From Bacteroidales bacterium (GTDB lineage: Bacteria; Bacteroidota; Bacteroidia; Bacteroidales; FEN-979): a stretch of DNA of 38,840 nt. Below are positions 35,924 through 38,840 of this stretch, piece after piece. Within the stretch, counting starts at the first letter, position 1, and every line of letters starts with the position of its first letter. The stretch is from contig JACZJJ010000005.1 of the NCBI GenBank assembly GCA_014860625.1, positions 1 through 38,840 of the forward strand. Reading direction: 5' to 3'. The position numbers were made by a program, and so were the translations under genes. The notes beneath the pieces are model-generated. The model saw nothing but the letters and a program-made list of their open reading frames with translations, had not been told where the DNA came from and did no database searches.

Positions 35924-37699
35924 TTAATCTCCCCAGGTCAGGATTTTAAACCCGGTCCTGCGGTTGGCCTGGTGCAGTGCTTCTGAACAATCCTGGTTGG
36001 GCTCGCAATTACAAGCATTTACTGGCATGGATTCTCCGTAACCTTTTGCACTAATTCTTCCGGGATCGATCCCCTGTTCTATCATATAGGTTACAGCCGA
36101 TTCGGCGCGTTTCTGTGACAGCTCGCGGTTGTACTCTTCGGTTCCCCGGCAATCGGTATGCGATCCCAGTTCTATTGTGACAGGATAGAGTTTCATGATC
36201 CGCACAAGGCTATCCAGGGCTGGTTTGGCATCTTCACGGATATCCCACTTGTCGAAATCGTAATAGATGTTTTCAAGAAGATAAGGCTTATCCAACTGCC
36301 AACTGCCCACTGCCAACTGCCCACTGTCCTGTGCCCTGGGCTCTGTGCCCTGCGCCCTGGGCTCTGTGCCCTGCGCCCTGGGCTCTGAGCCCAGCATTCT
36401 GGCAAATGAATAGATATCGTCTGCGCCGATTCCCCCTGGCCGGTTTGAGCTGAAAAATCCACGATCTCCGGTTGAATCAGTCCATATGGAGAAATCATCG
36501 AAAGAGGAGTTCAATGGGGATCCGGGATTCACCGGCGTCGTCCATACAGATTGTCCTGAAGTCATTTCGTTATCCTCAATGAATCGGGTAACGAATAAAT
36601 CCAGTCCTCCGAAACCAGGATGATAATCAGAAGCAAACCAGAGCTCATTCCGGCTTCCGGCGAAGGGAAACATCTCATTCCCGGGAGTGTTTATTAACGG
36701 CCCGAGGTTTACTGGCGTTCCCCATCCCCATCCGGTTTCCGTCCAATTACACTGGTAGATGTCTGTGCCCCCGTATCCACCTGGCTGGTTGGAGACGAAA
36801 AAGAGGGTATTTCCATCGGGTGAAAGCGCGGGATGCCCTACTGAGTAATTGATGTTGTTCAGGAAAAAAGGGACCGGTTTGGTCCATCTGCTGTCCTTGA
36901 TTTCGGCTGTAAAGATTTTCAGGAGGTGCGTACGGGTTCGTTCAGGATCGCGTTTCGCCTGATCCCCAAATGCCTGTGTCCGGTTAATAAACACCTCCGT
37001 GAAGCCCCTGTTGAAACTGACCGGACCGGAATGCCACTCATGGCCTGAGAGTTTGTCGTAATCTTCAGGGGTAAGAAATGAGTCGGGCGCTCCTACCGGG
37101 GTTTTTTCAGCAAGGAAAAGTTTCAGGTAGCTGTTTCCTGTCCATCCATAGAGTTTGTCGCGGCCCTGTTCAGGCAGCCGGTCGCTGGTAAAGAGCAGTC
37201 CGGTTGGAATGATAACGACACCAAATTCAGATTGGGGAGAGTTCAATAGGGCCATATTCTGCACATCGAATCCGGGTTTCTGTTGTTTCCAGCGGATGGC
37301 GCTGTCGCAAGCGGCTGCAAAATGATTCGACGGAAATCTGCCCGGCGCGACTGCTTCACATTGAAGGAAAAGTCGTTGCGCCTCTTCGTAATCACCCGAA
37401 ACCCTGTATGCCTGCCCCAGGTAATAATAGTTCTCCGGAAGGGTCTCGCCCAAACTTATTGCCCTTCGGTAGCAGGTCTTCGCCTGCGGCCAGTCGTTGA
37501 GCATCCGATAGCAATCAGCAAGCAATGAAACAATCTTTGTCTCTTCTTCCGGGTTCCCCTTCTCCAACGTTGTCTGAAGAAGCAAAACGGCTTCCGTGAA
37601 GTTGTAAACAGCCATCTCTTTCTCAGCCTGCCTGATTTGGGAAAAAGCCTGTGCGAAAGATAGAAGTAGGATGAAGCTTATGATGTGGGATTTTGTCAT
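35924..37699 (-). CDS. OmpA-family protein with TPR and PD40 repeats, 591 aa (PorE-like)
   Basis: A signal peptide (MTKSHIISFILLLSFAQAFS) precedes TPR-like helices (about 22-130: YNFTEAVLLLQTTLEKG, AKTCYRRAISLGETLPENYY). A PD40/beta-propeller region follows (about 150-430: HPALSPDGNTLFFVSNQPGG, NELWFASDYHPGFGG, RGFFSSNRPGGIGADDIY). A repeat-derived linker (about 433-470) leads to a C-terminal OmpA peptidoglycan-binding domain (about 475-591: YYDFDKWDIRED, HTDCRGTEEYN, RISAKGYGE, ANRRTGF). TPR-propeller-OmpA proteins such as PorE of P. gingivalis are periplasmic T9SS-associated factors paired with PorP-like proteins. The carboxypeptidase-regulatory-like domain common between propeller and OmpA in that group is not visible. 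It lies 81 bases downstream of the PorP-like gene, and the pair is probably cotranscribed. PorE itself is not claimed. Confidence 0.9.
   Translation of the reverse strand: MTKSHIISFILLLSFAQAFSQIRQAEKEMAVYNFTEAVLLLQTTLEKGNPEEETKIVSLLADCYRMLNDWPQAKTCYRRAISLGETLPENYYYLGQAYRVSGDYEEAQRLFLQCEAVAPGRFPSNHFAAACDSAIRWKQQKPGFDVQNMALLNSPQSEFGVVIIPTGLLFTSDRLPEQGRDKLYGWTGNSYLKLFLAEKTPVGAPDSFLTPEDYDKLSGHEWHSGPVSFNRGFTEVFINRTQAFGDQAKRDPERTRTHLLKIFTAEIKDSRWTKPVPFFLNNINYSVGHPALSPDGNTLFFVSNQPGGYGGTDIYQCNWTETGWGWGTPVNLGPLINTPGNEMFPFAGSRNELWFASDYHPGFGGLDLFVTRFIEDNEMTSGQSVWTTPVNPGSPLNSSFDDFSIWTDSTGDRGFFSSNRPGGIGADDIYSFARMLGSEPRAQGTEPRAQGTEPRAQDSGQLAVGSWQLDKPYLLENIYYDFDKWDIREDAKPALDSLVRIMKLYPVTIELGSHTDCRGTEEYNRELSQKRAESAVTYMIEQGIDPGRISAKGYGESMPVNACNCEPNQDCSEALHQANRRTGFKILTWGD
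36292..36393. repeat. Heptamer arrays inside the OmpA gene
   Basis: Plus strand 36292-36326 is five heptamers CCAACTG/CCCACTG. Plus strand 36331-36393 is nine heptamers in a 21-bp higher-order unit (GTGCCCT, GGGCTCT, then GCGCCCT variants). In the OmpA frame they give a heptad repeat EPRAQGT followed by QLAVGSWQL. The first family also occurs upstream of the giant gene at 13566-13590. Confidence 0.85.
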
Positions 37700-37719
37700 T
37701 GGTCATTGGTCATTGGTCA
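37696..37719. repeat. ATG-containing heptamer repeat over the OmpA start
   Basis: Plus strand TCATTGG three times (minus strand CCAATGA). Each unit contains an ATG on the gene strand, at 37713, 37706 and 37699; the last is the OmpA start. The 37713 ATG opens a five-codon frame, M-T-N-D-Q, whose TGA (37698-37696) overlaps the OmpA ATG as ATGA. Confidence 0.75.
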
Positions 37720-37780: not shown

Positions 37781-38840
37781 TTAAAAATATCGTGGTGTAA
37801 GCATGCGTGTTCGTTTAAAGAGGTCGGTTTCATAGCTGATGCGGATCTCGTGCGATCCGCTGTTGTGCGATCTTAGGGCATTGAACCAGATGTCGTAGGA
37901 GTATCCGACCGAAAATCCTTTCCCCACATCTACCCCAACCATCAGATCGATGGCGCTGTTCGTTCGGTATCCAACACCCAGGGTAAGGATATCGAGAAGC
38001 AGAAAACGGGCGTTGATATCTGCCTGCACCGGGGCGTTGGCAACATATTTCACCAGCACCGAGGGCAGAAACACGAATTTGCTGGCCAGGGAAATGGTGC
38101 CTCCGGCAATACCGTAAAAGTTGGCACGCAGCCGGGTGAAGGTCGCTTCGCCGGTTGGTGCAGTTGAGGAGACAATCATCTGGTTCTGAAGAAGGTGCTT
38201 CACCGATATTCCAGCATAGTAGCGTGCATGGGAGTAATAGATTCCGAAATCGACATCCGGGACGACACGATTGCTCGCATCGTTCACCAGCAGCTGATCT
38301 ACGGGATCCAACGGATGCAGCACATTCCAGTCGATGTTGTAATACTTGATGCCGGCCGAAACTCCAAATGCCAGTTTGCTGGCAGGGAAGAGAATCCGGT
38401 AAGCAAAAGAGGCCATCACGTTATAATCAACTGTGGGGCCGAGCTCGTCGCGATACATATAAACCCCCAGCCCGATATGCGGGTTCCGCAACGGGGTGTG
38501 AACCGTCAGGCAGGTTGTTCGGGGAGCCCCATCCACACCAACCCACTGGAAACGGGTGAGCAAGTCTGCGGCCAGAGCATCCCGGCTTCCGGAGTAGGCG
38601 GGATTGAACTCCAGCTTGGTATACATGTATTGAGTGAAGAGAGGGTCCTGCTGACCAACGACGAGGGACGAAGGAAGAAGGAGGAGGGACCAAAAAAGAA
38701 GGACGAGGGATGAGGGACGAAGGAAGAAGGAAGAAGGAAGAAGGACGAAGGAAGAAGGAAGAAGGAAGAAGGACGAAGGAAGAAGGAAGAAGGAAGAAGG
38801 ACGAAGGACGAAAGTTGAGGGACGAAGGATGAAAATAGAG
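37781..38840 (-). CDS. PorP/SprF-family outer membrane protein (5' end beyond window)
   Basis: The first ATG in frame (38626) is internal. Upstream codons in the same frame read QQDPLFTQY, then MYTKLEFNPAYSGSRD, the hallmark mature N-terminus of PorP/SprF proteins. In front of that is a hydrophobic stretch SSLVLLFWSLLLLPSSLVVG that fits a signal peptide. From QQDP to the TAA stop there are 290 residues, the normal size. Beta-barrel-like alternation and motifs such as GLGVYMYRDELGPT, FGVSAGIKYYNID, DFGIYYSHARYYAGIS and GFSVGYSYDI follow. PorP/SprF proteins work with T9SS in the outer membrane and are needed for secretion or anchoring of particular large surface proteins. No ATG, GTG or in-frame TTG exists between 38627 and 38840 and no stop occurs in any minus-strand frame there, so the start lies outside the window or was lost to the repeat array. 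Confidence 0.88.
   Translation of the reverse strand, partial: SIFILRPSTFVLRPSSFFLLPSSFFLLPSSFVLLPSSFFLRPSSLVLLFWSLLLLPSSLVVGQQDPLFTQYMYTKLEFNPAYSGSRDALAADLLTRFQWVGVDGAPRTTCLTVHTPLRNPHIGLGVYMYRDELGPTVDYNVMASFAYRILFPASKLAFGVSAGIKYYNIDWNVLHPLDPVDQLLVNDASNRVVPDVDFGIYYSHARYYAGISVKHLLQNQMIVSSTAPTGEATFTRLRANFYGIAGGTISLASKFVFLPSVLVKYVANAPVQADINARFLLLDILTLGVGYRTNSAIDLMVGVDVGKGFSVGYSYDIWFNALRSHNSGSHEIRISYETDLFKRTRMLTPRYF
38654..38840. repeat. Long heptamer array with 28-bp higher-order period
   Basis: From 38715 to 38812 there are 14 exact heptamers: (GGACGAA, then GGAAGAA three times) repeated three times, plus GGACGAA twice. Degenerate heptamers in the same phase continue down to 38654 (last ACCAACG) and up to the window end. 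The array is purine-rich on the plus strand and stop-free in all three minus-strand frames. The PorP-like signal peptide is encoded within its degenerate part. Confidence 0.92.

Follow-up and report, generated by a model that had tools for sequence, protein, structure and literature searches.

A heptamer array as the probable signal-peptide coding region of a PorP/SprF-family gene in a Bacteroidales genome

The window, meaning the whole stretch of 38,840 nucleotides that was analyzed, is the entire contig C79 of an assembly (G000) of 171 contigs and 3.77 Mb, and it ends at position 38840. The minus-strand open reading frame at its right end is a member of the PorP/SprF family. The profile search gave a full-length match above the curated cut-offs, to PF11751 (E = 4.6e-70; 236.7 bits against a cut-off of 22.3; profile positions 3–273 of 273) and to TIGR03519 (E = 3.4e-73; 246.6 bits against a cut-off of 90.55). 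The features at this end of the window are the following.

35924–37699, minus strand: downstream PorE/CHU_0125-like TPR-PD40-OmpA protein (NF053607 and NF052230, both below their curated cut-offs; Pfam OmpA, PD40 and TPR)
37781–38653, minus strand: mature PorP/SprF-family T9SS outer-membrane protein, N-terminus QQDPLFTQY (PF11751, TIGR03519; the same Q-Q-D start in orthologues)
38654–38839, minus strand: portion of the leader inside the window (62 of its 83 codons), built from heptamers in continuous phase, with the h-region SSLVLLFWSLLLLPSSLVVG
38715–38819, minus strand: most regular part of the array, TCCTTCG TCCTTCT TCCTTCT TCCTTCT (28 nt) three times (Tandem Repeats Finder period 28; unit listing)
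38775–38840, minus strand: 66 nt identical, end to end, to the 3' end of contig C57 (C57:8341–8406), as seen from the overlap and from the adjacency of the genes on single contigs of congeners

The product of the upstream gene, which lies on C57, has a type B CTD at its C-terminus (matches to TIGR04131 and PF13585), and the gene order is type B CTD protein, PorP/SprF, PorE/OmpA-like protein. The last of these genes carries heptamers of its own. At its start (37695–37719) a TGACCAA array sets three ATGs seven bases apart, one in each frame, and the long protein comes only from the last of them. At 36292–36392 two in-frame heptamer arrays (encoding EPRAQGTEPRAQ... and QLAVGSWQLD) encode a linker that joins the PD40 region to the OmpA domain. 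The remainder of the window (1–35779) holds giant repeat-rich genes in a row whose C-terminal domains (GDTLTDIRDNKRYPTV...CWMAANLNYG...) resemble one another; they may be a cluster of surface-protein genes that expanded in tandem.

Tandem Repeats Finder places a period-7 array at 38666–38812 and a period-28 array at 38660–38833. On the gene strand the heptamer phase is unbroken across the h-region up to TCGTTGG, which abuts TCAGCAG directly, and the period-7 score of the leader was reached by none of 1000 shuffles. A prior reading of the sequence alone (the sequence-only reading) had held that the signal peptide is coded by in-phase heptamers, that the array stops at the QQDP mature start and that the three gene-strand frames are free of stops through it. 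All of this is borne out; the three open frames span 352, 137 and 110 aa, each open at its 5' side at the contig end. The array described there as perfect at 38715–38812 is, on the other hand, a higher-order repeat of 28 nt, with one TCCTTCG followed by three TCCTTCT in each copy. The number of these copies could have been miscounted in short-read assembly.

The start codon, which the same reading gave as missing, sits on C57, the window contig merely ending at 38840. G002 (JADHVQ010000005.1, Bacteroidales MAG BS750m-G5) is the closest relative; there the upstream gene ends in GWIFVRGGSK and a stop codon, shortly 5' of the PorP start. C57 holds the orthologue of this upstream gene (C57:6884–8248), and it too ends in a like array. 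The proposed look beyond 38840 for an ATG that joins the frame of the array finds one in frame at C57:8279. On the gene strand, C57 ends with the same 66 nt with which C79 begins, end to end, and the 30-nt anchor that opens the overlap is unique within the DNA sampled. The join is based on this overlap, within a repetitive stretch, and on synteny, as congeners keep the upstream gene and PorP side by side on single contigs. From the upstream TAG to the first mature Gln codon, the joined sequence has 276 nt, comprising 39 heptamers in one phase, in the order AATTACG AATTATG AATTACG AATTATG AATTTTA AATTTCA AATTTCG CTTCTCG CTTTTCG ... TCCTTCT ... TCGTTGG. It contains two ATGs, both inside AATTATG, a variant of AATTACG. 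The reading from the first stops after MNYEL, and that from the second is in frame (MNFKFQISLLAFRFSLLASRFSIFILRPSTFVLRPSSFFLLPSSFF...SSLVLLFWSLLLLPSSLVVG/QQDP, the slash marking the predicted cleavage), with a leader of 83 residues and 373 aa in total. As assembled, the PorP/SprF gene is ON.

Read by eye, the joined leader (MNFKFQ...SSLVLLFWSLLLLPSSLVVG/QQDP) has the elements of a Q-rule Sec/SPI signal peptide: an in-frame start, basic residues, a hydrophobic stretch, small residues at −3 and −1, and Gln at +1. Cleavage before Gln is the Q-rule of Bacteroidetes (PMC5837995), with which the predicted PorP site agrees, and the leaders of congeners end in VYG/QQ, VFG/QQ and VHG/QQ. At 83 aa the leader is unusually long, which counts against the assignment. 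We nonetheless take the array to be probably a real and translated signal peptide of the PorP/SprF protein, its export and cleavage being predictions from sequence, and from this assignment the mature protein is predicted to begin with pyroglutamate-QDPLFTQYMYTK.

Alignment of the N-terminus with PorP homologues, a check proposed in the sequence-only reading, places the Q-Q-D start at the same position in orthologues of 60–81% identity. In the orthologues of G002 (81%), G003 (79%) and G005 (69%) the leader measures 39, 53 and 23 aa, begins each time at an in-frame ATG and is built of other heptamers (TTTCGCT/TTTCGTA, TCCTTCG and TTACCTC-type units, respectively), and its period-7 score was in each case met by none of 1000 shuffles. 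The G004 relative (60%) and the PorP orthologues in the other genera of the family have ordinary signal peptides. A PorP paralogue in G000 itself (C144, L083) has a leader with about eight in-phase copies of a 9-nt unit (TATTCACGT type), which encodes YSRYSR....

Three further genes with leader arrays were found in the G000 DNA sampled for these scans (1.81 Mb of the 3.77 Mb assembly, about half).

C44: Tol-propeller and beta-barrel-like protein, the propeller by profile match and the beta-barrel C-terminal half by eye
C110: BamB-like PQQ protein, heptamer leader MKHLLQPLPSSFIPRPSSLV...
C147: solute-binding lipoprotein, heptamer leader MKNKPLFFILYSLFLIPVFFYSC

The Tol/beta-barrel gene is unlinked to PorP, and it has a heptamer leader in all six genus members, in frame each time and 37–87 aa long. 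The six leaders are different sequences made of different units, the first 150 mature residues being 87–97% identical; most genus members retain an n-region resembling M(T/P)GKKNHR. Among ten orthologues from outside the genus, no period 7 was seen in the leader beyond the shuffle level. For the PQQ and the solute-binding genes, G003 is in each case the only congener with a heptamer-bearing leader. With ordinary leaders in the G004 PorP gene and in most congeners' PQQ and solute-binding genes, the takeover of leaders by heptamers appears sporadic.

Another G000 gene, A2M-like (C48, L193, 640–1100, minus strand), follows a heptamer array, but none of its frames offers a start codon or a signal peptide; some 60 nt separate the end of the preceding gene from the conserved part of the A2M-like one, and congeners have an intact start. 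We considered it as a frameshifted OFF gene and rejected this, as the other frames hold no start that leads into a signal peptide. A deletion between arrays or an assembly fault seems to be the cause. In several congeners (L251–L255) the part of the A2M-like gene that joins signal peptide and mature domain is hypervariable and rich in 7- and 8-nt repeats.

Heptamers are abundant throughout the genome. The 1.81 Mb of G000 hold 241 approximate arrays of period 7. Period 8 has 73 and period 9 has 23, and periods 4–6 and 10–13 have three altogether. A mononucleotide shuffle control on 1.27 Mb had no period-7 arrays, and the abundance is not due to chance. Coding cores make up 88% of the DNA, and 163 of the 241 arrays are outside them; many 5' UTRs hold one. 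A run of three TCCYTCG units occurs in six of six genus genomes and in only 2 of 55 others. G026, which belongs to another genus of the same family, has 222 matches to this run, and its close relatives have almost none, so that the abundance there is independent of the genus and stems from convergent expansion or from transfer. The Tol/beta-barrel gene of G026 was tested for takeover, which is absent. Over all units, the pyrimidine fraction correlates with the hydropathy of the encoded peptide (r = 0.83); TCCTTCT, for example, gives the hydrophobic SFFLLPS. Among the 86 arrays that directly precede genes, purine-rich ones (46) outnumber pyrimidine-rich ones (11), and the leader arrays have the opposite orientation.

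The observations to be explained are the array and its joined reading with an in-frame ATG, the orthologous leaders of other heptamers, the outgroups that have none, and the orientation of the leader arrays. The explanation that we consider probable is that heptamer satellites present genome-wide took over signal-peptide regions, with the frame kept by selection. Counting against it are the length of the leader, the join within a repetitive stretch, the sporadic nature of the takeover and the A2M-like gene on C48. The genus, one of uncultured Bacteroidales bacteria, would supply the material, carrying hundreds of 7-bp arrays of many related units, mostly intergenic, and an array spreading into a signal-peptide region could replace the signal peptide. 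Since 7 is coprime to 3, a pure heptamer array gives one heptapeptide in all three frames, a matter of arithmetic that is also visible in the three open frames of the window. Read from their pyrimidine-rich strand, the common units encode hydrophobic heptapeptides rich in Leu, Phe, Ser, Pro and Val. Replication slippage and unequal exchange probably rewrite unit and copy number, which would account for leaders that are wholly different between species. Signal peptides tolerate much sequence change. Purifying selection would keep the basic n-region, the cleavage site before Gln and, we infer, the net frame. The leader would then direct PorP into Sec export, and the exported protein would cooperate with the upstream type B CTD protein and the downstream PorE/OmpA-like protein.

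The sequence-only reading had seen here a contingency locus. In its opa-like form, slippage by one or two heptamers would switch subpopulations between states with and without PorP/SprF, and hence with and without display of its type B CTD partner. The architecture is of the kind expected, with a unit that is not a multiple of three placed between the ATG and the mature part, and the prediction made there that a one-unit change breaks the frame and every third restores it agrees with our in silico results: a gain or loss of one or two units gives truncated products of 129–160 aa, and of three restores the frame. The 28-nt repeats are nearly perfect, which suggests that their copy number changed recently, and the CTCTT leaders of Neisseria opa are a direct precedent (PMC5354566). 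The claim of switching itself, however, is unsupported. The joined gene is in frame, and so are 10 of 10 orthologous leader arrays (three PorP, five Tol/beta-barrel, one PQQ and one solute-binding), a small set of consensus assemblies in which the orthologues were fetched by the mature part only and so were unselected for frame. Were the frame free, the chance of this would be (1/3)^10 = 1.7e-5, or (1/3)^9 = 5e-5 if the G003 solute-binding case is left out, which is weak because a second in-frame ATG follows its array. No OFF allele occurs among these ten arrays, consensus assemblies in which minority states are hidden, and the search for array-adjacent genes with no possible start in the sampled G000 DNA gave no clear OFF gene, although a chance in-frame downstream ATG hides cases. 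The architecture is shared by housekeeping-like genes (Tol/beta-barrel and solute-binding), where OFF would probably be costly, and with arrays throughout the genome the PorP site is not singled out. The contig break falls exactly in the array, but we rejected it as proof of polymorphism because the end overlaps are not of one length (66, 88 and 141 nt), so that the break may reflect low coverage. Taken together, we judge a contingency locus unlikely, and switching at a low rate would be compatible with consensus assemblies, as these hide minority states. Also unlikely is the view of frame-agnostic heptamer satellites as a permanent reservoir of signal peptides in this genus, in which slippage gives rare OFF cells and length variants at several envelope genes simultaneously. 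If true, a single repeat system would both write export signals and diversify surface display, including that of the PorP/type B CTD pair.

Two further accounts are very improbable. The array could be a passive 5' insertion, as many 5' UTRs hold arrays, with translation from the ATG at 38624–38626 (MYTKLEF), no signal peptide and a defective gene. This start would drop QQDPLFTQY, which is conserved even in orthologues of about 50% identity, and with it the signal peptide that an outer-membrane barrel needs, whereas an open, in-frame hydrophobic leader is kept in four species. Mis-building of the array or of the junction, for which the contig end within a repeat, the MAG-quality assembly and the presence of N-masked contigs could speak, has just as little probability in our view: three congeners have this gene order, with heptamer leaders, on contigs that run through without a break, and the Tol/beta-barrel gene shows such leaders in six genomes.

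The takeover of signal-peptide regions by satellites, if correct, amounts to a natural experiment, in which a mature start of 87–97% identity is kept and the export signal is redone in every species with another 7-mer. It would be a simple route from junk-like satellite DNA to a working coding element, as an array whose unit is coprime to three poses no frame problem within itself and strand composition gives hydrophobicity. It also advises caution, in that an out-of-phase repeat in a leader need not be a phase switch. Among known systems, the PorE–PorP–type B CTD complex of P. gingivalis and the SprF–SprB pair of F. johnsoniae have been described (PMC9143113). The genes for PorP/SprF, a type B CTD partner and PorE have the same order here; what differs is that the leader is made of repeats, and the partnership is suggested here by gene order. 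Long simple sequence repeats dominated by 7-mers are known (cited in PMC4679880), and TAACTGA and other heptamer repeats occur in Beggiatoaceae, Cyanobacteria and some Bacteroidetes (PMC4679880). As here, these are numerous genome-wide arrays, mostly intergenic, often before start codons and sporadic across lineages. That study, however, concerns one unit, largely outside genes, and a term search of it finds signal peptides unmentioned, whereas dozens of unit types are present here and some are translated. In the open-access literature, our search for heptanucleotide repeats with signal peptides or Bacteroidetes secretion returned nothing relevant beyond PMC4679880, and no earlier description of signal peptides that are built from heptamers and rewritten from species to species. 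In Haemophilus influenzae, the heptanucleotide (ATCTTTC)n of hmwA lies between two promoters, is untranslated and grades transcription (PMC8262952); this too is a 7-bp tandem array at a surface-protein gene, but promoter-borne, whereas the present array is translated. The closest precedent for the leader repeat is the opa family of Neisseria, with its CTCTT pentamer within the region coding for the leader peptide (PMC5354566, PMC5953494). Both are pyrimidine-rich repeats with a unit coprime to three in the signal peptide of an outer-membrane protein, and the opa repeat, translated here, gives LFSSL in all frames. In opa, ON/OFF switching has been shown, whereas the leaders seen here are all in frame, with units of 7 nt that differ between species and with unrelated genes affected.
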